Part shown: positions 628-64,000 of the stretch, in pieces | How positions within the stretch are numbered: the first letter of the stretch is position 1 | How the letters are laid out: each line of letters starts with the position of its first letter | IMG/VR virus record: IMGVR_UViG_3300020166_000993 | Span: 1 to 64,000 of that record | Length of the DNA stretch: 64,000 bases | From: a virus | Direction: 5' to 3' (one strand) | The notes under the pieces: generated by a model | The model's database searches: none | The model's input: the letters and a program-made list of their open reading frames with translations, nothing else | Told to the model about the DNA's origin: nothing | Position numbers and translations under genes: made by a program

Positions 628-655
628 ATTATAGCACCTATTTGCTATTTGTCAA
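628..655 (-). promoter_or_regulatory. sigma70-type promoter for the MoxR-like gene
   Basis: Read on the minus strand: TTGACA (650-655), 16 nt, TATAAT (628-633), with TGC directly before the -10, an extended -10 element. It points into the gene starting at 595. Confidence 0.8.
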
Positions 656-660
656 CCTTT

Positions 661-1002
661 TTACATAGTCCAATAACGTTCTGTGAAAGGATCAGCACTG
701 CTGCCTATTTGGTTAATGCTCATTGATAGCGTGATTTCTTTACCAGTACCTGGTGCAATACCAGTACGAGTAACCTGGCGCTCAATATTAGCCAAATAAT
801 GTTCAGATTCAGCAATACCGTAAATGAACTGAGGATCAGTGTCTATACTGTAAGTAGACAGATTTTCATGAGCCTTCTTGCTCATTCTAGTTAGAGCAGC
901 CTTCGCAGCACCTAGGGACTTATAACACGTTGTCTCACGGTAAGAATTACTGCTTCGGGCTTTAACAATTGCGGTGGTCTTTAAATCGTATATTACAAAC
1001 AT
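661..1002 (-). CDS. hypothetical protein, 113 aa
   Basis: I do not recognise this protein. It begins MFVIYDLKTTAIVKAR and is a mixed alpha/beta sequence with no signal peptide, membrane segment or known motif. It is a single-gene unit: a consensus promoter lies about 35 bp upstream and the promoter of the next gene starts just after its stop. That suggests an early, host-takeover type gene, which is inference from position only. Confidence 0.65.
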   Translation of the reverse strand: MFVIYDLKTTAIVKARSSNSYRETTCYKSLGAAKAALTRMSKKAHENLSTYSIDTDPQFIYGIAESEHYLANIERQVTRTGIAPGTGKEITLSMSINQIGSSADPFTERYWTM

Positions 1003-1034
1003 ATTTTCTGCTCTTTTTGTTAATGTATGCGTAT

Positions 1035-1062
1035 ATTATAGCAGGAATACGGGATTTGTCAA
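1035..1062 (-). promoter_or_regulatory. sigma70-type promoter with conserved upstream block
   Basis: Minus strand: TTGACA (1057-1062), 16 nt, TATAAT (1035-1040), TGC before the -10. The promoter and about 20 bp upstream of the -35 are nearly identical to the promoter at 34199-34226. Confidence 0.8.
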
Positions 1063-1103
1063 GCTGTAAGTTATTGATTTATATAGACCAAAAAAAAAAG
1101 GTT

Positions 1104-1129
1104 AAAAAAAGCGGGCAATTGCCCGCTTT
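1104..1129 (-). terminator. rho-independent terminator
   Basis: A perfect palindrome GCGGGCAATTGCCCGC (1111-1126), extended by A/T pairs, is followed on the minus strand by a run of seven T (complement of 1104-1110). It lies 18 bp after the stop of the winged-helix gene and just upstream of the next promoter, so it separates two transcription units. Confidence 0.85.
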
Positions 1130-1146
1130 CTGGGACGGCCTTCAGC

Positions 1147-1419
1147 TTATACTAAGCCTGCTGCCAATGCTTTGAAACCAGCAGCAACAACTGCGCGGCT
1201 TGGGTTACCAAGACGATAAAAAGTCTTAGTACGGCCCTTTGTGTCAGTCTTTTTGTTTGCGTAGATAGCAAACCCTTTCATACGAAGAGCTGATACAGTT
1301 GACCGTGCATTACCTACACCAAATCGAGCTTCGATTTGAGCAGCAGTGAGACCACGATTGTTAGCTTTGAGAGCCTCGAGTACACGAGCTTCTTTAGTTA
1401 CAACTGTTGAATTAGTCAT
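1147..1419 (-). CDS. small winged-helix DNA-binding protein, 90 aa
   Basis: Residues 24-50 read as a helix-turn-helix (LTAAQIEARFGVGNARSTVS) followed by a basic wing (KKTDTKGRTKTFYRL), the layout of small winged-helix regulators. The ATG at 1419 has a good ribosome site (AAAGGAG). It has its own consensus promoter and a strong terminator, so it is a monocistronic early gene. It is probably a regulator or DNA architectural protein; the target is unknown. Confidence 0.7.
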   Translation of the reverse strand: MTNSTVVTKEARVLEALKANNRGLTAAQIEARFGVGNARSTVSALRMKGFAIYANKKTDTKGRTKTFYRLGNPSRAVVAAGFKALAAGLV

Positions 1420-1476
1420 AAATGACTCCTTTACTTAGGTTTAATTGTGCTGTGCTTTATTGCGCAACATGTATTA

Positions 1477-1504
1477 ATTATAGCAGGTCTTAGCTCTTTG
1501 TCAA
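1477..1504 (-). promoter_or_regulatory. sigma70-type promoter for the winged-helix gene
   Basis: Minus strand: TTGACA (1499-1504), 16 nt, CCTGC then TATAAT (1477-1482). The -35 lies inside the last codons of the upstream gene. A leader of about 55 nt precedes the ATG at 1419. Confidence 0.8.
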
Positions 1505-44643: not shown

Positions 44644-46827
44644 TTAGACAATACTTAACATGTAATCTTTATCTGTATATCCTATTTCTACCCAACAATC
44701 CTTTAAATTTTCAAACAATATTTTTTTACTCAATGGTTTCTTTATTTCGTGTTCAAACAATCGTTTTAATGGCCTTGCTCCCATATTAGGATCATATCCG
44801 TCTTGAGCTAGTTGTAAACGAGCATCCTGAGTAATCTTAATTCTAATTTTACTGTTGTTACCTATCAACAATGCGTTTGTTTCTTCTACTAGTTTATCAA
44901 CAATTAACAACATTTGTGTGTTCTCTAGTTTACTAAACGGCACTATTGCATCAATCCTGTTTCTAAATTCAGGGGCAAAAAATTGTTGGATAGCTTTATC
45001 AATCTCTCCCTGCTTTACGGGATCACCAAAACCAATTTTACGAACCTCACTTGCTTGTATTCCCAAATTGCTTGTCATTAAAATAATAACATTAGAAAAA
45101 TCTACTTTTTTGCCAGCACTACCAGTAAGAACTCCATCGTCCATAATTTGTAACAACACCTGTAAAACTTCTGGTGCTGCTTTTTCCACCTCATCTAATA
45201 ATAAAACACAATTAGGTGTTTCATCGATTGCTGCTAATAACTGACCTTGGCCCATTTTACCTTCTGCATGGCCAATATATCCTGGAGGAGCACCAATCAA
45301 TTTTGCAATGCTGTGTCTTTCTTGATATTCACTCATATCAAATTTTACCAATGTACAATTTAATTCCTCTGCTAATGCCCTTGCAGTTTCTGTTTTACCA
45401 GTACCTGTGGGTCCTACAAATAGAAAACTACCAATTGGTTTATGCACTTCCCGTAAACCTGCTTTGCTTACCAATATACTCTCTACAATTTTTGCAATTG
45501 CTTGATCTTGTCCGTAAACAACTGTCTTGATTCTATCTTCCAGTGTTTCGTAACCATAACTGCTTTCCGTATCAATTACGTCTTCGCCAATGTTACTTAT
45601 TTTACTAATAACTTTTACGACATCTGAAATTTTTACGGTTTTTTGTTCACGAAGTTTAACTCTAGCGCCAGCAGCATCTACAATGTCCAATGCTTTATCT
45701 GGAAAACACTTATTTTTGATATATCTATCAGAAAGGTCAACTACTCTGCTTAATAATTTTAAGCTGTATTTTACATGATGGAATTCTTCGTAATAGGATT
45801 TCAGACCGTATAGAATATCCTTAGTGTCAGCAACTGAAGTTTCATTGATTATTAGTTTTTCAAAACGCCGTTTCATTGCGCCATCTTTTTCTATACTATT
45901 AGCAAATTCGTCTGGAGTAGTTGCTCCTATGGTTTGTAATCTACCTCTACCTAACGCAGGCTTTAGGATATTTGCAGCATCAACTGATCCGCTAGATCCT
46001 GTACCTGCTCCCATGATCATATGTATTTCGTCTATAAACAAAATAGCGTCTGGGTCTTTTTCTAGATAGGAAATTACACCTTTTAATCTTTCCTCAAAGT
46101 CACCTCTGTACTTGGCACCTGCAATCATTCCTGCTAAGTCCATGCTGTACACAACTTTGTTTTTCATTATATTTGGTATTTCACCGTCTACAATTTTTTT
46201 AGCCAACCCTTCTGCAATAGCAGTTTTACCTGTGCCTGGTTCCCCTACTAACACACAGTTATTTTTCTTTCTTTTTGCAAGTACGTGTACTAAGTCACTT
46301 ACCTCGTTTTGTCTTCCAATTAAAGGATCTATCTTGGAATTTTTTGCTTCTTGGTTTAAGTTTATGGTGTATTGTTCCAATAAATCTCTTGCTTCGTTAT
46401 CTTCCTTTTCTTTGATAATTTTCTCTTTAATTGTCTCTTTTTCTAATCCGTTTATTTCGCAATAGTAACGAGCAAAACTTTCTTCCTCGCTTAAAATACT
46501 AATTAACAAATCTGTTGTTTCAAATTTGTCTTTTTGGCTAAACATCATTTGTGCTACGCCTCTTTGAAAAACACGATCAACTAATGTTGTTTTTTTAGGT
46601 TTTCCTTTAGTGCCGTGAACATTCTTTAAACCATGCCAACTTTCTCTGTTAAAATAGTTATTTAAGTCTGTGATTATTTGATCAACGTCAACTGTATTTT
46701 CCTTACATACCTCTATTATTTTTTCGTCCCTGAGTAAGCACAAAACAATATGTTCTAGAGTAACATATTCATGATTTAGTTCTTGGGCTACAGTTAGCGC
46801 ATTATGCATTACTTCTTCAATTGTCAC
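44644..46827 (-). CDS. clpA: ClpA-like AAA+ unfoldase
   Basis: 727 aa. A Clp N-domain (residues 1-140), first AAA+ module with GEPGTGKT (195-202) and ILFIDE (262-267), second with GPTGTGKT (472-479) and VLLLDE (541-546). There is no long coiled-coil middle domain, so it is ClpA rather than ClpB. RKIGFGDP (IGF at 598-600) sits where ClpA carries its IGL/IGF ClpP-docking loop. It should unfold proteins and feed ClpP; no clpP gene is in the window, so host ClpP is the likely partner. It overlaps the co-chaperone gene by ATGA. Confidence 0.9.
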   Translation of the reverse strand: MTIEEVMHNALTVAQELNHEYVTLEHIVLCLLRDEKIIEVCKENTVDVDQIITDLNNYFNRESWHGLKNVHGTKGKPKKTTLVDRVFQRGVAQMMFSQKDKFETTDLLISILSEEESFARYYCEINGLEKETIKEKIIKEKEDNEARDLLEQYTINLNQEAKNSKIDPLIGRQNEVSDLVHVLAKRKKNNCVLVGEPGTGKTAIAEGLAKKIVDGEIPNIMKNKVVYSMDLAGMIAGAKYRGDFEERLKGVISYLEKDPDAILFIDEIHMIMGAGTGSSGSVDAANILKPALGRGRLQTIGATTPDEFANSIEKDGAMKRRFEKLIINETSVADTKDILYGLKSYYEEFHHVKYSLKLLSRVVDLSDRYIKNKCFPDKALDIVDAAGARVKLREQKTVKISDVVKVISKISNIGEDVIDTESSYGYETLEDRIKTVVYGQDQAIAKIVESILVSKAGLREVHKPIGSFLFVGPTGTGKTETARALAEELNCTLVKFDMSEYQERHSIAKLIGAPPGYIGHAEGKMGQGQLLAAIDETPNCVLLLDEVEKAAPEVLQVLLQIMDDGVLTGSAGKKVDFSNVIILMTSNLGIQASEVRKIGFGDPVKQGEIDKAIQQFFAPEFRNRIDAIVPFSKLENTQMLLIVDKLVEETNALLIGNNSKIRIKITQDARLQLAQDGYDPNMGARPLKRLFEHEIKKPLSKKILFENLKDCWVEIGYTDKDYMLSIV

Positions 46828-47648
46828 TTAAATACCTCATCTTTTATTTTATTTAACATCGATATATGCTCAGGATTAGTAATATTAGGTGTCTTAATAT
46901 CTAATATTAAAAACAAATGTCCTTTGCTGTTGATATTATTAGGACTAGGCATACCCCATTGGCTTAGTCTTAATCTTTCCCCTGTACACGAACCTCTTGG
47001 TATTTTTACTTTGAACCTAGATCCTGCAAAGTGTTCGTATTCTATTTCTCCTCCTATCATTGCAGTGATACAGTCTATGTTAATTTTATGCAATACATTA
47101 TCCCCATCACGTGCCATGTTTGGTGGCATTTGTGTTTGTATTCTTACAATCAAATCTCCAGGAGGTAACTGTTTAAATCGTTGATGTCCTTTGCCGTGTA
47201 TTCTTAATTTTGCCCCTTCACGAATACCAGGTGGCAATGATATATTTTCGTTTATAACCCCAGCGTTTATGTTAAAATCTCCGCCTGTATAGGATTGCAA
47301 AAGACTAATATTTAAATTTACTTGTGCATCAGGATTTCTTTGTTGCTGTGGTCCTCTGTTACTAAATCCAAATTGTGACATGACATCATCAAACGGGCTA
47401 CCGGTATTAAAGTTAAAACTGAATCCCTGAGGTCCACCTTGTTGTTGTGGATCCACTGTACCAAACTGATCATACATTTGACGCTTTTGAGGATCACTTA
47501 ATCCTTCATATGCTTCTTGTAATTTTTTGAACTCAGCTTCGTCGCCGCCTTTGTCAGGATGATGTTGTCCAGCTAACTTGCGATAAGCACGTTTAATCGT
47601 TTGTGGATCCGCATCGCGAGCCACGCCTAGTGTTTGATAGTAATCCAT
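46824..47648 (-). CDS. CbpA-type DnaJ co-chaperone
   Basis: 274 aa. J domain at residues 1-66 with the essential HPD (HHPDKGG), a Gly/Phe-rich segment (about 75-100), then two beta-rich substrate domains (GIREGAKLRIHGKGHQRF). The zinc-finger domain of full DnaJ is missing, as in CbpA. It should stimulate host DnaK and deliver clients, possibly together with ClpA. The ATG is 8 nt after a TATAAT, giving a nearly leaderless mRNA. Confidence 0.88.
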   Translation of the reverse strand: MDYYQTLGVARDADPQTIKRAYRKLAGQHHPDKGGDEAEFKKLQEAYEGLSDPQKRQMYDQFGTVDPQQQGGPQGFSFNFNTGSPFDDVMSQFGFSNRGPQQQRNPDAQVNLNISLLQSYTGGDFNINAGVINENISLPPGIREGAKLRIHGKGHQRFKQLPPGDLIVRIQTQMPPNMARDGDNVLHKINIDCITAMIGGEIEYEHFAGSRFKVKIPRGSCTGERLRLSQWGMPSPNNINSKGHLFLILDIKTPNITNPEHISMLNKIKDEVFK

Positions 47649-47656
47649 ATGTGTCT

Positions 47657-47685
47657 ATTATAGCATAAGTTTGAGGAAAATGCAA
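47657..47685 (-). promoter_or_regulatory. sigma70-type promoter for dnaJ-clpA
   Basis: Minus strand: TTGCAT (47680-47685), 17 nt, TGC then TATAAT (47657-47662). The dnaJ ATG begins 8 nt later. The -35 is part of the hairpin at 47680-47710. Confidence 0.65.
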
Positions 47686-47710
47686 GGGGCAACTGTTGTT
47701 ACCCCCGCAT
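47680..47710 (-). terminator. hairpin after TonB receptor gene, candidate terminator
   Basis: GGGGTAAC and GTTGCCCC form an 8-bp stem (one G-T pair) with loop AACA, extended by ATGC/GCAT after a small internal loop. It starts 15 bp past the receptor stop. Only a weak T run follows, so termination may be partial. Confidence 0.5.
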
Positions 47711-47724: not shown

Positions 47725-50700
47725 TTAAAAGACGTACTTTAATCCTAACTGGATACGACTTAAACTTCTGTAGTAGTTAATCGCTTGATTATCCACACGG
47801 TCTAAGCTCATGCCGTAAGCTGGACGATATTCATAACTGTATGAGCCGTCAGCGTTTGTGACTGGTACTGCTTCAGCTAAACTACGGGCTGAGTTGTTTG
47901 CTTTAGTCTGCTGTCCCCAATCTGAGTTCAACAAGTTAGGCAAGTTCTCAATATCAAGTGATACTAGGACCTTGTCTGCCTTGCGAAATCCTGGAAACTC
48001 TTGAGTAACTTTTAAGTCAACTCTGTAGTTCCAATCAGTTTCGAACTCGTTGATTGGTGCAAAGCCACCTGCATAACCTGCTAAACCAGCTGCTGCAATG
48101 TATGCGTTGTAATCAGCTGCAAAGTAATCAGGAATGATTACGTCTGTACCTGAACCATTTGGTACATAAAATGCTGCTGTTTCATCACGAGCTGATTCTC
48201 TATCCAATCCCCATAACGCACCATCTTTATACTGACCAAGAGTATAGCTGAATGGTTCGCCACTTACAGCGCCAGCAATTAATGCAAAGCGTGTTGGTGA
48301 GTTTGGAATCCAGTTTGCAGTATAACCTGCAACAACACTAATTGTGTGTTCACGGCTGTATGGGCTTCTGTGCAATACGTCTGCATTGAAGTCTTCATAC
48401 TTAGTGGTGTACTTGAAGTTACTGATGTTACGTGAGCTGCTTAAAGCACCTACTGTTTCTACATCTTGCCAAGTGTAATTAGCGTATAAGTCAAAGCCAT
48501 TATCAAAGGCCTTTGCAACACTAGCTGAGAACAAAAGACTTTCGCCTTTGTCTGTGTTAGTGAGTAACATGTCATAACCACGACCGTCAATGAATTTCTC
48601 CATTGCTTTACCACATACACTATAGTCTGCATAAATTGCTCTGCCATCTGGGCCTGTACCAATTTGAGTATTTGATACATAGTCACCAATTTCTGGACAA
48701 TCTACAGCACCACCAAATGCAGGGTTGCCAATACGCAACTGCCGGAAGTGTAAGTCTTTGTCTACTTTGGTCATTAACAAGTCTGCTGTCATATCCCAAC
48801 CATCACCAAAAGTCCAATCAGCGCCAATGCTTACTTTAAGTTCACGTGGCAATTCAAAGTTTGGATCCATGATGTCAGCATAACCAGGACGGAATCCAGG
48901 TTGACCAGGCTGATAAATGTACTGGTCAAATACTGATGTATCAAACCCATCAAAGCCTGCTGCTGCTTCTAGTGGAACGTTTGCGTTTTGGATACCAATA
49001 CCATCATTGCTGAAAGTACCACCCATCCACACGTTAGGACGTCCACCAGTAAAGTAACCTGCACCACCGCGGAATGTTACATCCTGGAAGAAAGCAAGGT
49101 CATCTGCTTGGAATGAAAAACTAACTCTAGGCAAGAATACATCTTTGCCGTCTAAGCTAGTAGCGTTACTGAAACCATAGTATTGTTCAATTTGAGGATT
49201 AGCCTTTGGTGCTTGATCCATAGAGATCTTTTCCCAACGTGCGCCAGCATTAACAGTTAATCTGTCAGTAGCGTCCCAGGTATCCTGAATATAGAAACTG
49301 GTAGTTTCAATAGCAAAGGCAGCACTGCCATCAGCAGGGTCGCCACTTGGTGCATTACGATAGTCAATGTCGTAAGGAGTCTTGTTAGCAAAGTCTTCAA
49401 TGCTTGCAAAAACTAACTCACCATCGCTGTATGCAACAAAGCCGTTAAAAACGTCTACTTCGTTGTAATGCACACCAGCAACAATTTCATGTTGGCCCAG
49501 CAAGTAACTTGCTTCCAATTCCATCTCTGTTGTGGTTGTACTGAGTGTGTTAAAGTGACGGAAAACGTCAGGACCCATTAATACTTGTGGGCCTCTGTTG
49601 CCTTCGCCTAGTTCAACAACTGCTCGCATAAAGTCTGCACCACCAACACTGTCTTGTGCTGTATCAACTTCACGCTTACCATATCGTACACTTGTGCTTA
49701 ACTTGTCATTCCAATCTGAAAAGATTTGAACGCTGTTAGCAGCAAGTTCAGATGTTTTGATGTAGTTACCTGAGGTAAGTGCTAACACAGTGTTTGAACC
49801 ACCGTACTCGCTTACATCGTTATTGTCTGAAGTCTGGTGGGTAAAAGTTGCACGATGGAAATCTGAGATATTCCAATCCAACTTAACCAACAAATCTTCG
49901 TCTTCTAGCATGTTATCCATGCCGCTTGCGCTACCTGCATTATAACCATAAACTGAATCAGCAATGGCAATAATTTCCTGTGCGTCAGCAAGTGACACGC
50001 CGTCTACTTCTCTAACGGCACCAGATCCAGCAGCACCAAAAACACCTGGCTCTTGCTTTTCAAATTTGTCATAGTTGACAAAGAAGAAAAGTTTGTCTTC
50101 CAGGATTGGACCACCGAATGTAAAACCAACAGTTTCTTCATCAAACTCACCATTGGTGACTTCAGTGCCGTCAGTTTCATCACCTACAAAACTGTCGTTA
50201 GTCTTATAAGCATACACGCTACCAGAAAATTCATTTGTACCTGACTTAGTAACAACATTAATGTTACCAGCAGTTGAACCTGAATCTCTTACGTCATAGT
50301 CTACCACGCTCACAGTTACCTGATCAACGCTTTCCAATGCAATAGGCGAACGTACACCTGGGTAGCCGCCATACTCCAAACCGAAGTCATCTGATTGGCC
50401 AATACCGTCAACACTGAATGAGCTATAACGTGCGTTTTGTCCAGCGATGCTGATACTTTCAGTATCGTCACCGTTGAAACTGATGCTGTAAACATTCACA
50501 AATGGTTGTGTTGCAACTGCATCTTTTAGGTCACGGCGAACACTAGCAATATCATTAACTTGATCTGCTGTCATTACGCCGCTTGGACCAGCTTGCAGAC
50601 CTTTGAGGTCTTGTCTGATCGCTGTTACTACTACTTCTTCCATACTGCGTTCTGGTGCAACGGTTAAACGTAAACGTTCTTCTTTACCCAAGTTCAAGAA

Positions 50701-50979
50701 GATACCTGATGCGGAACCCAGTGAATCACCTACAGTTGCAGCAACGTAGTAAGGACCGCCAACACGTAAATTACGTGCTACAAAGATACCTTGCTCGTTT
50801 GTTGTTTGTAGTGAAATTGAACCAGATGGTTCGTGTGTGATAACGACTTTAGCGCCGTCTACTACTGCACCCCCAGAGTCAACAACGACTCCACGAATAG
50901 CACTAGTTGTCTCCGAGGCAACCGAACCAACAGAAAATACTGCAAGTACGATACCAAGGAGGAGTTTGCGAATATTCAT
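47725..50979 (-). CDS. TonB-dependent outer membrane receptor (Oar-like)
   Basis: 1084 aa and apparently complete. Signal peptide (residues 1-22, cut after SVAS), then a carboxypeptidase-regulatory-like beta domain (about 27-110, SAIRGVVVDSGGAVVDGAKV), a TonB box (EEVVVTA, about 114-120), a plug domain with SFSVDGIGQSDDFG, and a long beta-barrel ending in LGLKYVF with the terminal Phe of outer-membrane proteins. Such receptors import nutrients with TonB energy. In a phage it may remodel the host surface, replace a lost receptor or block superinfection. The promoter and neighbours are phage-like. Confidence 0.88.
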   Translation of the reverse strand: MNIRKLLLGIVLAVFSVGSVASETTSAIRGVVVDSGGAVVDGAKVVITHEPSGSISLQTTNEQGIFVARNLRVGGPYYVAATVGDSLGSASGIFLNLGKEERLRLTVAPERSMEEVVVTAIRQDLKGLQAGPSGVMTADQVNDIASVRRDLKDAVATQPFVNVYSISFNGDDTESISIAGQNARYSSFSVDGIGQSDDFGLEYGGYPGVRSPIALESVDQVTVSVVDYDVRDSGSTAGNINVVTKSGTNEFSGSVYAYKTNDSFVGDETDGTEVTNGEFDEETVGFTFGGPILEDKLFFFVNYDKFEKQEPGVFGAAGSGAVREVDGVSLADAQEIIAIADSVYGYNAGSASGMDNMLEDEDLLVKLDWNISDFHRATFTHQTSDNNDVSEYGGSNTVLALTSGNYIKTSELAANSVQIFSDWNDKLSTSVRYGKREVDTAQDSVGGADFMRAVVELGEGNRGPQVLMGPDVFRHFNTLSTTTTEMELEASYLLGQHEIVAGVHYNEVDVFNGFVAYSDGELVFASIEDFANKTPYDIDYRNAPSGDPADGSAAFAIETTSFYIQDTWDATDRLTVNAGARWEKISMDQAPKANPQIEQYYGFSNATSLDGKDVFLPRVSFSFQADDLAFFQDVTFRGGAGYFTGGRPNVWMGGTFSNDGIGIQNANVPLEAAAGFDGFDTSVFDQYIYQPGQPGFRPGYADIMDPNFELPRELKVSIGADWTFGDGWDMTADLLMTKVDKDLHFRQLRIGNPAFGGAVDCPEIGDYVSNTQIGTGPDGRAIYADYSVCGKAMEKFIDGRGYDMLLTNTDKGESLLFSASVAKAFDNGFDLYANYTWQDVETVGALSSSRNISNFKYTTKYEDFNADVLHRSPYSREHTISVVAGYTANWIPNSPTRFALIAGAVSGEPFSYTLGQYKDGALWGLDRESARDETAAFYVPNGSGTDVIIPDYFAADYNAYIAAAGLAGYAGGFAPINEFETDWNYRVDLKVTQEFPGFRKADKVLVSLDIENLPNLLNSDWGQQTKANNSARSLAEAVPVTNADGSYSYEYRPAYGMSLDRVDNQAINYYRSLSRIQLGLKYVF

Positions 50980-51040
50980 ATGTAACTCCTTACTTTTCTT
51001 CGCTGTTTGTGAATGACCTTAAATCAGCATCATCGTGTTA

Positions 51041-51068
51041 ATTATACACACTTAAAGTAAAAAGTCAA
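51041..51068 (-). promoter_or_regulatory. sigma70-type promoter for the TonB receptor
   Basis: Minus strand: TTGACT (51063-51068), 16 nt, TATAAT (51041-51046). Leader of about 61 nt, then AAGGAG before the ATG at 50979. Confidence 0.75.
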
Positions 51069-51119: not shown

Positions 51120-51959
51120 TTAATCAAACCATAAACAATTTATTTCAGTCTCTATACTTGATCTAGGCGTATCTTGCCTGCCAGGAAATAAAAAAGATGA
51201 ATGCGGTGTAAACCAGCGTTTAGTTTTAAGCAAAGATGAATCATATAATCTAAATAACACAACTTCGTCATAGGTCATTTCTGAATAATAATACCAATTA
51301 TGTGTTATTTCTGGTTTTTTTGAAAAGAGTAACATATGATGTGAGTAGTTAGGATCATTGTTAGCCTCGATATATTTTTTCACTAAATGATCTGGTACTT
51401 TGTAATTAATCATTTCCAAAGGATGTATACTCGTGGGATCACACCAAGCCATTTGACTACAAGGATTAGTTTCTCCTGTATTACGCCAGGCCTTGAACAT
51501 TGCCCAACGTTTAATTGTTGGACTAGGATCGTGGATTTTTTTACTAGCATGCCCTATAAAACTGGGGATGTTGGAAAAATCCAAGTGTTTAAATTTATAG
51601 CCTAAAATTTCAAAAGCATTTGATGTGAGATCGTTATGAGCAAATACAGCAGGAGGTAAGTCTTCTTCTTGATCAGTGGATCTAAATCTAGATTTATTTA
51701 CTAATACACAATCTGCATCAGTTTTTTCCAGACCCAACTTAGCTAATTTGTGATGGTATCTATGTAGGTCATTACTATCGGGCCCGAGTGTTGGGGTAAG
51801 CTTACCAAGTTCGTCGATGTTATGAGGGATAAGCTCAAATCCTAAGGATTGGAGACCTGGTAGTTTAATGGTTCTAGCATTCATTATTTCAACAGGGAAG
51901 TCTTTGTACTCCTCAGGGGTAGGAGATCTATATACACGGTATTGAATAGTAGTTTTCAT
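51120..51959 (-). CDS. CmcJ/NvfI-family oxygenase-like protein
   Basis: 279 aa. The C-terminal half shows the family pattern: FKAWRNTGE, QMAWCDPTSI, NWYYYSEMTYDEVVLF, RLYDSS, TPHSSF and PRSSIETEINCLW. Members include the CmcJ subunit of cephamycin biosynthesis and fungal 2OG-dependent NvfI-type oxygenases. A non-haem iron oxygenase role is likely. It overlaps a methyltransferase gene by ATGA, as part of a four-gene cassette with a sulfotransferase and a second family member. Confidence 0.65.
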   Translation of the reverse strand: MKTTIQYRVYRSPTPEEYKDFPVEIMNARTIKLPGLQSLGFELIPHNIDELGKLTPTLGPDSNDLHRYHHKLAKLGLEKTDADCVLVNKSRFRSTDQEEDLPPAVFAHNDLTSNAFEILGYKFKHLDFSNIPSFIGHASKKIHDPSPTIKRWAMFKAWRNTGETNPCSQMAWCDPTSIHPLEMINYKVPDHLVKKYIEANNDPNYSHHMLLFSKKPEITHNWYYYSEMTYDEVVLFRLYDSSLLKTKRWFTPHSSFLFPGRQDTPRSSIETEINCLWFD

Positions 51960-52567
51960 TTAAGTTTCTTAAGAACCAATACACTGCCTGCACTGTCTAC
52001 TTCCTGCCCTTTACCGCCATCAACTAATTCCTGACACGCAGTGGTTACGCCAGGACAATGGTTAATCTGATTACGATGTTTTAATCCGTCGTTAGGCACA
52101 GCATCATGGAATACACATAATCCTCCAATGTCTAAACTGTCCCAGTGAGTGTCAATATCTCGCTTAACTCCTTCGTAGGAATGGTCACCATCAATAAATA
52201 ATAATCCTAAATTACCTGTTGTTATGTTTTTAGCATCATCTTTAATCAGTTTTAAACTCTTGGAAAACTCAGGATCTGAGAAATATTTTTCTGATGTCTG
52301 GTGATGGGCTGGCGCAATGTCAACACTAATCACAGGCCTGTCAGCCCCAGCGGCCGCTACAATTAACACAGTGCTACCACCATGGCGTCTGCCAATTTCC
52401 AGTATAGTACCTGAAGTAGCTTTAATAGATCGCCACAGGCATTCTGCCTCATCAAAGTTCAGACGTACGATACCTCTGTCATTGTTGTTGTTATAGGGGG
52501 TGTCTTTATATCCATGTAAGAATTTCATTTCTGAAACACTATTGAATTTTGTTTGTAATGTAATCAA
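51956..52567 (-). CDS. SAM-dependent methyltransferase (CmcI/Methyltransf_24-like)
   Basis: 203 aa. GTILEIGRRHGGSTVLI (motif I), VISVDIAP, GLLFIDGDHSYEGVKRD and GGLCVFHDAV fit the methyltransferase 24 / cephalosporin hydroxylase-like group. The reading starts at TTG 52567, which has AGGAG at ideal distance; the first ATG is at 52528. It is flanked by CmcJ-like genes, recalling the CmcI-CmcJ pair. Confidence 0.75.
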   Translation of the reverse strand: MITLQTKFNSVSEMKFLHGYKDTPYNNNNDRGIVRLNFDEAECLWRSIKATSGTILEIGRRHGGSTVLIVAAAGADRPVISVDIAPAHHQTSEKYFSDPEFSKSLKLIKDDAKNITTGNLGLLFIDGDHSYEGVKRDIDTHWDSLDIGGLCVFHDAVPNDGLKHRNQINHCPGVTTACQELVDGGKGQEVDSAGSVLVLKKLK

Positions 52568-52605: not shown

Positions 52606-53196
52606 TTACCGCAGATTACTCTTTGTTATACTATTATTTTTTAATGCGTTTTCCATGCATACCTTACTGTTGTGTCTTACATCTCCATCAAATAAAAATT
52701 GTTGTAATTTATCTAACTTAGTTAAATTAATATTAATCATATCATTAAATGATAAGTTAAAAGTATTTTCTGTGCCCTGCCAGCCTGCAACTCCGTTACG
52801 AAGTTTAGCCAAATTATCGATGGGGAACGCTGCTTCGCTTAAATCTTGCCTTTTTGTTTGCTCCCTCATTCTGTTCAGTGATTCAATACATTCTTGTTTG
52901 TCCCTTGTTAACAGAATTTTTTTAAAATCTTTTAATGATTTTTCTGTTATAGGATTATATTCAATGTGCCCTTGAGAAAAATAATTATCAGTTATTAATG
53001 ATGCAGTGCGTGTTATTGGCCGATACACCGCCTTATCCGGTCCATACAGTTTTTCTTTATGAATATTGCGTGGATTAAATTTTACAAAACCTGTCGATGT
53101 AAAATGCATCCAGCTAGGATTTATTTTTAATTCAGAAAGCAAGTTTACGCATAAGTAAGTTCCTGATTTAGGTTGGCTAATAATAACATATTTCAT
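52606..53196 (-). CDS. sulfotransferase-like protein, 196 aa
   Basis: ISQPKSGTYLCVNLL is the PAPS 5'-phosphosulfate loop (PKSGTxxL) at the N-terminus, and ILLTRDKQECIESL the 3'-phosphate region (RDxxxxxxS-like). This is a clearer match than the sulfotransferase at 23369. Its ATG is one base after the stop of the second CmcJ-like gene. Confidence 0.75.
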   Translation of the reverse strand: MKYVIISQPKSGTYLCVNLLSELKINPSWMHFTSTGFVKFNPRNIHKEKLYGPDKAVYRPITRTASLITDNYFSQGHIEYNPITEKSLKDFKKILLTRDKQECIESLNRMREQTKRQDLSEAAFPIDNLAKLRNGVAGWQGTENTFNLSFNDMININLTKLDKLQQFLFDGDVRHNSKVCMENALKNNSITKSNLR

Positions 53197-53197
53197 T

Positions 53198-54202
53198 TTA
53201 ATTTAACCAACCTAATAAACAGTTACAGTCTATGCTTGTTCTATGTGGTAATCCTTTTTCTTTAAGACGAAATCCAGTGTGTATACTTGCCCAGGATTTG
53301 TTTTGATAAAACTTTTGGCTGTCCCAAATATTAAATAAGATTAATTCATCAGGTTGTAGGTTGGGATAATAATAATACTTTCCAATAAGTTGAGTACAAT
53401 CTCTATGTATTGTTAATGTTTGATAGTTTGAATCCTCAAATATTTTTCTCACCTCACAAGTTTTAAGTACATCAATATTACCTGAGCCTTCTAGCATGAA
53501 TTGGTTATCAGGATGTTCAGGCCCTAAGTTTCTCCAGCTGTTATAGCATGCTGTTCTAACTGTACTCCAATCGGCATCAGCAAGTGATTGTTTGTTTATA
53601 CCAGGAGCAAATCTTACTGTATAATCCTTATGCAGGATTGAATTCGGATTGATTACTCTGTTAAGCCATAGTCGACTAGTGTTAAACCTACGTGTAGATT
53701 TTTCCAGTTTTGAATGTGTTAAACCTACACTGTGCAATATTAGAGCTTTTATATATGGCTCCATTGCGGAATGATAATCATTGTGCAGTGACGAGGCTAC
53801 AGTACATTGGTTTTTTACTGTACGTAGGCGATAAGCAGCAGGGCTAGGCCCTGGGATGTTTTCTTGTAAATTAAAATGCTTACCCGTCTCGGAGAGATTG
53901 ACATTCTCGGAGCGCTCCCCTGAGGGCAGATGATTACTTGAACGTATCCTATGACTATGACATAACACTATGTCTGGTTTAAATGTATCCATCATTATAT
54001 CAGCTAGTTCATTATAATAGACTTCAGCTATTTTTTCAGAGTTAGTTATAATCCTGCTATTGTCTCTAGAAGTAAAAACTTTTGATTTATGATTTAATAA
54101 AGTAAGGTTATTACTGCCAAAATTAATATCTGCTTCCCTTGCATTATGAATGTCAATGTCGATAATGCCATCATGGAGATTGATCTCACCAGTGATTTTC
54201 AT
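53198..54202 (-). CDS. second CmcJ/NvfI-like oxygenase, 334 aa
   Basis: The C-terminal part repeats the pattern of the 51120 protein: CYNSWRNLGPE, KYYYYPNLQPDELILFNIWDS, SIHTGF and HRTSIDCNCLL. The N-terminal 150 residues are beta-rich and differ. It overlaps the spanin lipoprotein gene by ATGA. Probably acts in the same pathway as the first oxygenase; substrate unknown. Confidence 0.6.
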   Translation of the reverse strand: MKITGEINLHDGIIDIDIHNAREADINFGSNNLTLLNHKSKVFTSRDNSRIITNSEKIAEVYYNELADIMMDTFKPDIVLCHSHRIRSSNHLPSGERSENVNLSETGKHFNLQENIPGPSPAAYRLRTVKNQCTVASSLHNDYHSAMEPYIKALILHSVGLTHSKLEKSTRRFNTSRLWLNRVINPNSILHKDYTVRFAPGINKQSLADADWSTVRTACYNSWRNLGPEHPDNQFMLEGSGNIDVLKTCEVRKIFEDSNYQTLTIHRDCTQLIGKYYYYPNLQPDELILFNIWDSQKFYQNKSWASIHTGFRLKEKGLPHRTSIDCNCLLGWLN

Positions 54203-54678
54203 TTATTTTTATATTTTTCAGTAAGTTCTTTGTTACGTGCAACATAATCTTCTAGATCCGTATCACCATCTCCGTCAGCGTCGGATGTTGTGGTTGCCTG
54301 TCTGTAATAAAGGATTACATCTTTGCTTTGCAATATGTAACGTTTGATCTCTTGTAAATTAGCAGCCATTGCTTCATAGTCTTGAGGAATAAGAGCGAAA
54401 ACCACAAAGCCACCGTCCAGTATTTTCTCTACCTTCTTGATCTGTTCATCTAGGTTATTACGATTAATCACAAAAAACTCTACGTCTTGCATTTGTATTT
54501 CTTGTGGGAGTGGAGGTTGATAAATTTCTACAGCAACCTGTTCGGTTACTATTTTTACTTCAGGAATAGGTGGGGGTAATTTGTCCTTACCTTTAAAAAG
54601 ACCCCCTATTCCAAATGAAGCGCAACTACTTAGTAGTAGAGTCGCTGTCAGTATCGCTAGTGTCTGTGTTATCCGCAT
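54199..54678 (-). CDS. lipoprotein, candidate outer-membrane spanin (Rz1-like)
   Basis: About 159 aa from the ATG at 54678. Signal peptide with lipobox LLSSC (Cys near residue 18), then a proline-rich KLPPPIPE segment and helices. The start lies inside the end of the preceding Rz-like gene, the classic nested/overlapping spanin arrangement. Spanin pairs fuse inner and outer membranes at lysis. It is longer than lambda Rz1, so the call is moderate. Confidence 0.6.
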   Translation of the reverse strand: MRITQTLAILTATLLLSSCASFGIGGLFKGKDKLPPPIPEVKIVTEQVAVEIYQPPLPQEIQMQDVEFFVINRNNLDEQIKKVEKILDGGFVVFALIPQDYEAMAANLQEIKRYILQSKDVILYYRQATTTSDADGDGDTDLEDYVARNKELTEKYKNK

Positions 54679-55084
54679 TTTGTACCTCTTTGCTGGCTTG
54701 CTCAACGCTTCTGAACACTTCAGCTGTGCTTTTGTTAGCACGTGGTTCAATTAGTCCAGGCTTTGCTCTGGCAAGTTTTGTTAGGTTGTGTCGTTTAAAT
54801 ATACTCAAGTATGCATCACGTTCTGCTGCAATTGCATTTGATTTTGCACTAAGCTCACTGATAGCAACATTTTGTGCTTGTGCTTTTTGGCTTAGGCTTT
54901 GTATTGTGTTTAAGTTTTCTGCTTGTGCTACTTCAAGTGCTGCCGCTTTCTTTTGTTCCACTTGTAGTTTGTAACCCAGATCATCAATTTGATCTTGCTT
55001 TGCATTAATAGTAGTGTAATGATAAAACCAGGCGGCACCTGCTACTAAAATTAGTACTGGTAATAGTTTTAAGAATCCGAACAT
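54626..55084 (-). CDS. candidate inner-membrane spanin (Rz-like), 152 aa
   Basis: One N-terminal membrane helix (residues 5-22, LLPVLILVAGAAWFYHY), then a long periplasmic coiled coil (residues 30-90) and an acidic disordered tail. This is the Rz/i-spanin plan. The next gene, a lipoprotein, starts 53 nt inside its 3' end. Lysis role inferred from topology and overlap. Confidence 0.6.
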   Translation of the reverse strand: MFGFLKLLPVLILVAGAAWFYHYTTINAKQDQIDDLGYKLQVEQKKAAALEVAQAENLNTIQSLSQKAQAQNVAISELSAKSNAIAAERDAYLSIFKRHNLTKLARAKPGLIEPRANKSTAEVFRSVEQASKEVQNADNTDTSDTDSDSTTK

Positions 55085-59102: not shown

Positions 59103-59855
59103 ATGTCACGTAAGAAGCGTAAAGCAAATTGCAACAAATACCGAAGAAACCAACCACAAGGAGAACCATATTTGAGACTAGTACAGGGCGGCGCACCTTT
59201 AGAGCGTAACAGAAACAAACAAGTAAACATTGTACCCAGAAACTTCCACCAGGATAATTTATTAGATTATCTGGAAGATCACAAAATCAACATAGTTTTT
59301 GCTGTGGGCCCAGCAGGCACAGGCAAAACACTCATTTCAACACTAGCAGGCATCAGAGAACTAAAAGCAGGTGACATCGACAAGTTCGTAGTAACCCGCC
59401 CTGCTGTAAGTGTGGATGAGCAACACGGTTTCTTGCCAGGAACTTTACAAGAGAAAATGGCGCCGTGGACGAGACCCATATTTGATATCTTTGAGGAATA
59501 CTATAGCCCAGATCAAATTGAGTACATGTTGAGTGATAATAAAGTAGAAATTGCTCCACTAGCATATATGCGTGGACGCACTTTTAAAAACTCATTCATC
59601 ATAGCAGATGAGATGCAGAATGCTACAGAAAGCCAAATGAAAATGCTACTAACCAGAATAGGAGATGGTAGTAAAATTGTGGTTACTGGCGACCTAGCGC
59701 AGCATGATCGTGGCTATGAATCAAACGGCTTAAAGTTGTTCATTGAGAGATTGGTGAGAACAGGAAGCGACCGCATCAAACTAGTAGAGTTTGACAGTAA
59801 GGACATTGAACGACACCCAGTGGTAGATGAAGTACTAAGACTTTACGCTGAGTAG
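59103..59855 (+). CDS. phoH: PhoH-like ATPase
   Basis: 250 aa. Walker A GPAGTGKT (about residue 70), KFVVTRPAV, FIIADEMQNAT (Walker B) and VVTGDLAQHD are the PhoH signature. It is an RNA/NTP-related P-loop ATPase very common in marine phages; its exact role is unsettled. The basic N-terminus (SRKKRKANCNKYRR) may bind nucleic acid. AGGAG precedes the ATG and a terminator follows. Confidence 0.92.
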   Translation: MSRKKRKANCNKYRRNQPQGEPYLRLVQGGAPLERNRNKQVNIVPRNFHQDNLLDYLEDHKINIVFAVGPAGTGKTLISTLAGIRELKAGDIDKFVVTRPAVSVDEQHGFLPGTLQEKMAPWTRPIFDIFEEYYSPDQIEYMLSDNKVEIAPLAYMRGRTFKNSFIIADEMQNATESQMKMLLTRIGDGSKIVVTGDLAQHDRGYESNGLKLFIERLVRTGSDRIKLVEFDSKDIERHPVVDEVLRLYAE

Positions 59856-63214: not shown

Positions 63215-63874
63215 TTAAAACAATTTTTTAGTGATTGTAACAAATGCTTGCTTTTCATCTGATAAGTCTGAAGCATCATCAGCTTTAAATGAGCTGTAAC
63301 CAAATGTAGCGTCTGATTCAAAAGCAGTGCCTTCGAAAATACTTACGCCTTTAGAAACTTTCCAGTTGGTTCCTGCACCATCTAAATCGCCAAAGCTAGC
63401 ATCAAAGTGGCCCAGAACATCTACACTTACTTCCATGTAGTCTGCTGCATCGTCCATTCCTTTGAAGTAAGAAGCACTTACTGCTTTGTATCCCAATGAG
63501 ACCATAACTTCTTCTACATCAAGAGCTGACTCGTTAAAGTCTACTAACTCATCGAAGCTGCTATAATTGTAATCAATGTATGCAACATCCAAAGTTAAGC
63601 CTTCACCACCCATCTTGTAACCAGCATAGATGTCATACTCTGCTTCAATGTCTGTACCGTAATCAACTTGACTACCCCATACACCAGCATAAAAATTGCC
63701 AGCAGAGACATTTACGTCTGCACTAACAGCAGGACTATTAGCATTTTGTGCCATACCACGGAAAATGTATTCCGAAGATACACCAACAGAACCACCAACT
63801 TCTAAAGCTGATACACTGCCAGCGAACAATAATGCACCCACTGCAACAAGTGACTTAATATTTAATATATTCAT
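63215..63874 (-). CDS. TorF-family (Gcw_chp) putative porin
   Basis: 219 aa from the ATG at 63874, which has AAGGA; the longer frame to 63913 is rejected. Signal peptide (residues 1-23, ending VSA). SSEYIFRGMAQNANSPAV is the N-terminal signature of the TorF/Gcw_chp porin family, followed by amphipathic strands and a terminal LF. It would form an outer-membrane beta-barrel. A terminator follows. A porin gene in a phage is unusual; with the other two outer-membrane genes it suggests surface remodelling. Confidence 0.78.
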   Translation of the reverse strand: MNILNIKSLVAVGALLFAGSVSALEVGGSVGVSSEYIFRGMAQNANSPAVSADVNVSAGNFYAGVWGSQVDYGTDIEAEYDIYAGYKMGGEGLTLDVAYIDYNYSSFDELVDFNESALDVEEVMVSLGYKAVSASYFKGMDDAADYMEVSVDVLGHFDASFGDLDGAGTNWKVSKGVSIFEGTAFESDATFGYSSFKADDASDLSDEKQAFVTITKKLF

Positions 63875-64000
63875 AATTTTTCCTTTTCTTTGGAGCAAAT
63901 AAATTTGCCTCACTTTTATTTAGCTTTTTCTTGCAGTTTTCTTACATTTTTTGGAATTGCATATGAATAGCATAGTTGGAAAGGCTTAACCCTGGTAGTA

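Follow-up and report, generated by a model that had tools for sequence, protein, structure and literature searches.

The virus record IMGVR_UViG_3300020166_000993 (IMG/VR) comprises 65,720 bases, of which the first 64,000 form the window analysed here, and carries on its reverse strand a complete gene for a TonB-dependent receptor (TBDR) whose frame contains no internal stop (Table 1). An initial annotation had described an intact, phage-borne receptor of 1084 residues preceded by a promoter, and the open reading frame, the Pfam domains, the structural model and the conserved phage context bear this out. The chaperone and oxygenase genes that it had placed around the receptor could be specified as DnaJ followed by ClpA on one side and a CmcJ/NvfI-family oxidoreductase on the other. 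The DNA polymerase and ClpA of the window are closest to those of the jumbo phages Atu_ph07, Phosso, PA5oct, RaK2 and 121Q, and tail, baseplate and virion structural genes flank the receptor locus; by its gene content, the window is part of the genome of a jumbo phage resembling RaK2, 121Q and Atu_ph07.

Table 1. Features of the receptor locus and the surrounding phage genome (window positions)
Feature	Position	Strand	Evidence or remark
TBDR gene	47725..50979	-	ATG to TAA, 1084 residues; Oar-like architecture: CarboxypepD_reg, plug and OMP_b-brl_4 barrel
Signal peptide, residues 1-22 (MNIRKLLLGIVLAVFSVGSVAS)	50914..50979	-	Read from sequence; model confidence low there
CarboxypepD_reg domain, residues 28-107	50659..50898	-	Pfam PF13620, 2.3e-10
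TonB box EEVVVTA, residues 114-120	50620..50640	-	Sequence; position shared with phage and cellular copies
Plug domain, residues 125-248	50236..50607	-	Pfam Plug; best-conserved domain of phage copies (0.82 to window)
22-strand barrel with 11 extracellular loops, residues 252-1084, Phe-terminated	47728..50226	-	Model, strand assignment, Pfam
Sigma70-type receptor promoter TTGACT-16-TATAAT	51041..51068	-	Pattern search; ~60 bases 5' of ATG
Terminator-like hairpin between receptor and dnaJ: GGGGGTAAC-AACA-GTTGCCCCT, T-rich tail	47685..47706	-	Hairpin also there in other complete copies
DnaJ-like co-chaperone, conserved downstream neighbour	46824..47648	-	Pfam DnaJ and DnaJ_C; PHROG 14336
ClpA-like ATPase, jumbo-phage type, conserved downstream neighbour	44644..46827	-	PHROG 4871, 2.6e-238; closest PA5oct, Atu_ph07, RaK2
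CmcJ/NvfI-family oxidoreductase, upstream neighbour	51120..51959	-	NCBIfam NF041278, 96.6 bits vs cut-off 80
Probable spanin pair bordering insertion site	54199..55084	-	Lipoprotein 54199-54750 overlaps inner-membrane protein 54626-55084; read from sequence
Second outer-membrane protein of the phage, TorF/Gcw_chp family putative porin	63215..63913	-	PF09694 3.7e-16; TIGR02001 3.9e-20

The protein has the features by which TBDRs are recognized, namely a signal peptide, a TonB box, a plug, a 22-strand barrel filled by that plug and a C-terminal aromatic residue, as seen in the sequence (MNIRKLLLG..SVAS at the N-terminus and ..LGLKYVF, with Phe as last residue, at the C-terminus) and in the structural model. 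The AlphaFold2 model, computed from an alignment of 65 phage and cellular rows, reached a predicted local distance difference test score (pLDDT) of 83 and a predicted template modelling score (pTM) of 0.83, with all 22 strands assignable, 11 long outer loops and a disordered TonB-box segment (residues 112-130); phage relatives carry an EELVVVGQ-type TonB box at the equivalent position. In a fold search with this model, the top PDB matches were all TBDRs (FusA, YddB, Cir, FepA; E down to 6.6e-30), and a PDB sequence search returned no relative at E <= 0.01. Pfam placed the barrel at residues 361-1018 (OMP_b-brl_4, 6e-34) and 390-959 (TonB_dep_Rec b-barrel), while its Plug match to residues 135-223 scored 21.6 bits, slightly below the cut-off of 23.9, which the receptor copy of contig L014 passed with 24.7 bits. 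Membership of the Oar-like subfamily is indicated by CarboxypepD_reg (41.1 bits against a cut-off of 32.3) and the PF25183 barrel (118 against 30). No SusC or RagA model matched and no SusD-like protein was found among the scanned neighbours, and the FepA-type siderophore receptor model NCBIfam NF010048 scored 20 bits against a cut-off of 493.

An IMG/VR search with the receptor recovered homologues in two groups of phage contigs. In group A (L001/L009, L002, L003, L004/L015, L006/L011, L008), the receptor-DnaJ-ClpA order and the tail genes are kept, so that seven contigs, the window and six further IMG/VR contigs, have the receptor beside DnaJ-ClpA. In the T4-like group B (L005/L014, L010, L134, L135), the receptor precedes the terminase small subunit, CsgF, CsgG, a FecR protein and a CHASE2 cyclase, and the two groups have no homologous receptor neighbour in common. 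The CHASE2-guanylate cyclase of group B is of the HTVC008M/Melnitz type; RIO-1 was considered as kin of these phages and dropped, its cyclase matching that of HTVC008M and Melnitz phages. In L014 (13354-19999), L134 and L010, CsgF, CsgG, the FecR-domain protein and the cyclase form one block adjoining the receptor, as in HTVC008M and Melnitz. The initial annotation had named chimeric junctions, or disruption of the gene in all related phages, as grounds for rejecting its reading. Chimeric assembly is ruled out because independent contigs share the same receptor junctions, and every complete phage copy found, eight distinct full-length ones, is intact.

Across groups, the phage copies are 69-80% identical. 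The ratio of nonsynonymous to synonymous substitution rates (dN/dS) among them was 0.04-0.16; synonymous divergence (dS) is saturated in distant pairs, and near pairs yield matching ratios, as in L009/L015 (dS 0.135, ratio 0.105). As judged from these comparisons, the phage copies are under strong purifying selection, and as a host-derived gene under such selection in phage lineages the receptor behaves in this respect as an auxiliary metabolic gene. In the tree, all ten phage rows fall into a single clade (Shimodaira-Hasegawa-like approximate likelihood ratio test, 100) on a stem of 1.02 changes per site. Within this clade, groups A and B are mixed, L134 of group B being placed with group A copies (100) and L014 and L010 apart (95), and therefore the receptor gene has moved between unrelated phages. 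Jumbo-phage relatives of matching gene order without the receptor have a spanin-like gene followed directly by DnaJ, an empty site, and contig L143 lacks the receptor although the rest of its genes match the window as closely as group A genes do. A second type of phage receptor, ~30% identical to the window receptor, occurs on L136 and L137 and is sister to a cellular protein; therefore capture by phages happened at least twice. On L137, it adjoins T4-type clamp and clamp-loader genes. At this locus of the 95.8-kb contig L136 (9968-14483), a Porin_5 gene comes directly after the receptor, and a gene for a subtilase-domain protein with an endosialidase-chaperone tail lies beyond it. That a complete TBDR is part of phage genomes, under selection there and passed between phages, is near certain.

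The receptor gene has its own promoter and terminator, together with a strong ribosome-binding site (AAGGAG), and would be expressed during infection. The pattern TTGACW-N16-TATAAT occurs at seven exact sites in the window, and with one mismatch allowed at nine, compared with 2.0 expected and with none of 100 shuffles reaching nine. Most of the other exact sites have TGC immediately 5' of the -10 element, which the receptor promoter lacks; the earlier proposal that it resembles other phage promoters thus holds for the overall form, but the receptor promoter is of a different sub-type. The TTGACA-16-TATAAT family, with TGC before the -10 element in most members, was seen at window positions 628-1504, 21954, 33853 and 34199 (-), and these are probably host-sigma-dependent phage promoters. 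Because the terminator-like hairpin, which the initial annotation had not mentioned, lies between the receptor stop codon and dnaJ, the gene is its own transcription unit. Three group B copies have a perfect TTGACA-17-TATAAT at the same distance from the gene as in the window, with GAGGGGGC-TTCG-GTCCCCTC terminators, and four group A copies likewise carry hairpins 3' of the receptor. From these elements, the receptor module reads as monocistronic in both phage groups. A T4 late promoter (TATAAATA) 5' of three closely related group A copies shares its position among them, but its count does not exceed expectation and it was set aside as unproven.

Beyond the conserved neighbours, the upstream region of the window has a second CmcJ/NvfI-family oxidoreductase-like gene (53198-54202, -), scoring below the cut-off, and between the two lie a methyltransferase gene (51956-52567) and, by eye, a sulfotransferase-like gene (52606-53196). 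Among the group A contigs examined, these genes occur only in the window. The probable spanin pair has no Pfam match, and weak relatives of the TorF/Gcw_chp putative porin were seen in Caulobacter jumbo phages. A PhoH-like gene on the opposite strand (59103-59855, +) is kept in the group A contigs covering the region and in most ClpA relatives.

The way in which the phage copies vary bears on what the receptor could do. In 22 phage pairs, the extracellular loops are 78% and the strands 70% identical, with loops never below strands in any of the 22, whereas 20 cellular pairs of similar divergence show the reverse pattern, with 65% for loops and 73% for strands on average. The plug and the TonB-box region are kept across phage copies, and the conservation of the plug above all other domains, together with a TonB-box-like motif in all copies, is what active transport needs. 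The outer surface of the receptor would thus bind something constant, a pattern that fits an importer better than a mask.

Cellular homologues provide a clue to the possible cargo. Of two scans of genome contigs for receptor relatives, the first gave none and the second many; the nearest among the matches listed are only ~36-39% identical, and a six-frame search of 1263 genomes found no cellular homologue above 39-40% identity. Receptor phylogeny, suggested at the outset as a way to identify the host, accordingly pointed to none. Full-length homologues (30-39% identical) occur in Alteromonadales and relatives, such as Paraglaciecola, Pseudoalteromonas, Colwellia and Idiomarina, and are present in 237 of 297 genomes of one family. 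Their clustered neighbours include Nucleos_tra2 (NupC), uridine kinase, secreted Exo_endo_phos and S1/P1 nucleases, 5'-nucleotidase, alkaline phosphatase and pyrimidine nucleoside phosphorylase. By our count, at least one nucleic-acid or phosphate gene lies within ~4 kb at 39 of the 79 listed loci, and such neighbours accompany 9 of 17 loci in the clade that adjoins the phage clade, compared with none of 20 random 20-kb stretches from three of the same genomes. Gene combinations vary among the Paraglaciecola, Pseudoalteromonas, Colwellia and Microbulbifer relatives, and Xanthomonad and most Caulobacter-type loci have none of these neighbours. In the neighbour clusters examined, siderophore and saccharide families did not recur.

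Given these observations, it is reasonable to suggest that the receptor, an authentic and selected phage gene, equips the outer membrane of infected cells with an energised importer, most probably for a nucleic-acid-derived nutrient, a reading that we regard as evenly balanced between right and wrong. Import itself is likely, judging from the conserved plug, TonB box and loops. The receptor would be secreted and folded by the host β-barrel assembly machinery (BAM) and powered by host TonB-ExbBD; its large outer loops could bind one conserved ligand, which it would move into the periplasm, and the imported material may feed phage replication, to the benefit of the phage. The likeliest ligands would be nucleotides, oligonucleotides or nucleosides plus the phosphate they carry, since the cellular homologues adjoin nuclease, 5'-nucleotidase, NupC, uridine kinase and phosphatase genes, and host 5'-nucleotidases and nucleoside transporters could complete the uptake. 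In keeping with an importer, other transport proteins take similar places. In the group B relatives L281-L286, the slot 5' of the terminase small subunit holds a porin-like signal-peptide protein of 300 residues ending in Phe, which matched neither Pfam nor PHROG, and the slot of L286 (1004-3136) additionally has a marine-type ammonium transporter; a porin gene follows the L136 receptor, and the window phage itself has the TorF-type porin. Our results also raise the tentative and rather doubtful possibility that several unrelated marine phage lineages carry and exchange a dedicated importer of nucleic-acid debris, by which the infected cell would recapture nucleotides and phosphorus from lysed neighbours, as one of several interchangeable outer-membrane transport genes (receptor, porin, once with an ammonium transporter) at fixed slots.

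Nevertheless, several points weigh against this proposal. The closest cellular relative by search score among the matches listed (L021/L238) has no nucleic-acid genes within ~8 kb, much of the neighbourhood signal comes from one family with a shared ancestral gene order, and the genes counted had been picked for recurring there. The phage loops are only ~25% identical to cellular loops, and therefore the ligand may differ from that of the cellular homologues; they are also acidic (net -33 to -43), which makes them unsuited to long nucleic acid, and the basic loops expected for nucleic-acid binding were not found. That the host has a TonB system is an assumption. Because the loops diverge and are acidic, and because L021 has no such context, a nucleic-acid-derived cargo stays a reasoned guess that is somewhat more probably wrong than right.

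The same mechanism with a different ligand, such as siderophore-iron, a peptide or a saccharide, could relieve iron or carbon limitation, and is the strongest of the alternatives although unlikely. CarboxypepD_reg receptors handle diverse ligands, the solved TBDRs matched by fold mostly take up iron or siderophores, and the ligand-binding loops are phage-specific. However, the cellular relatives adjoin nucleic-acid and phosphate genes rather than recurrent siderophore or saccharide families in the clusters examined, and the FepA-type model scored far below its cut-off. Among the functions offered in the initial annotation, import has thus become the best supported, with a nucleic-acid-derived nutrient preferred over iron.

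That annotation had also considered replacement or masking of the host receptor and a block to superinfection. In such a case, the phage protein would displace or mask a host TBDR and thereby prevent adsorption of later phages, or of the phage's own progeny. TBDRs are indeed common phage receptors, as it had stated, a fact that says nothing about this particular gene, and the Lc porin of phage PA-2 is a precedent for receptor replacement. Phage Cor proteins inactivate FhuA (PMC11436027), and gene exchange among unrelated phages suits competition in one host. Yet a mask has no task beyond not binding phages, so drift would be expected in its loops, and the greater conservation of loops than strands argues against a mask or decoy; moreover, the plug and TonB box are retained although an inert barrel would suffice, and sister phages hold a porin-like protein or AmtB in the same slot, so that superinfection exclusion appears improbable. 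Export or surface display of a phage or host protein is far less probable still: the receptor shares its overall architecture with Oar-like receptors, and Myxococcus Oar is needed for secretion of the protease PopC (PMC6434023), but the two phage groups have no shared neighbours and no candidate cargo gene in common, and the receptor is a single-gene unit. A passenger gene recently captured without benefit, or an assembly chimera, might be suspected from the G+C content of the window copy (43.3% against 37.7% for the window) and from close relatives that lack the gene, but is already contradicted by the conserved junctions, the dN/dS of ~0.1 and the deep phage-only clade.

TBDRs are usually studied as doors for phage entry, and here phages supply one. 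If the receptor imports a nucleic-acid-derived nutrient, viral genes would partly set the nutrient uptake of infected marine bacteria, and a viral outer-membrane receptor would be a measurable marker of such uptake. From the neighbours of the cellular homologues comes a ligand hypothesis that can be tested directly and that extends to a receptor subfamily very common in Alteromonadales; masking predicts the opposite outcome and is equally testable.

TBDRs are an old family, and a full-length phage-carried receptor of this family appears to be undescribed in the literature searched, of which coverage was incomplete and in which no full-length phage-encoded TBDR was described. The nearest report there is of pelagiphage Skadi-1, with a gene annotated as 'TonB-dependent receptor domain protein' (PMC10504331; OP131302), which shares only this name with the phage receptor; at 148 residues and in the capsid/tail gene region, it is too short for a barrel and was rejected as a phage TBDR. 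A PHROG search gave no match to the window receptor, and the sole homologue in 50,697 phage records was an UNVERIFIED, unannotated fecal scaffold. The FhuA-type matches inspected, with Y13 and others left aside, were those of 'Acinetobacter phage MD-2021a' (INPHARED CAKLQF/CAKLQH), whose contigs look bacterial, and of Y11 (INPHARED OQ572412), an UNVERIFIED record in which the proteins around the match look bacterial; both were discarded, and no bona fide full-length TBDR was found in the isolate phages examined. Several INPHARED 'phage' records seem to be bacterial DNA and give false matches for bacterial genes in phages.

By fold, the only full-size viral TBDR found was A0A8D9FQQ5 (BFVD), a TonB-dependent receptor SusC of an uncultured marine phage, and therefore phage carriage of a TBDR has already been deposited; with 805 residues and 9% identity, however, it belongs to a different TBDR family. 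The CsgF/CsgG curli-pore cluster of pelagimyophages, the function of which was stated to be unclear (PMC7029224), is likewise phage-encoded outer-membrane machinery and stands with the CHASE2 cyclase beside the receptor in the T4-like phages, but it is a secretion pore without homology to the receptor. The ammonium transporter of L286, a nutrient-transport auxiliary metabolic gene, is also a host-type transporter in phage DNA and in the same genomic slot, but is an inner-membrane channel instead of an energised outer-membrane receptor. The Oar-like TBDRs of Alteromonadales and relatives resemble the phage receptor in domain order, TonB box, plug, terminal Phe and full length, and differ from it in that their loops vary more than their strands, while the phage clade stands on a long stem of its own.

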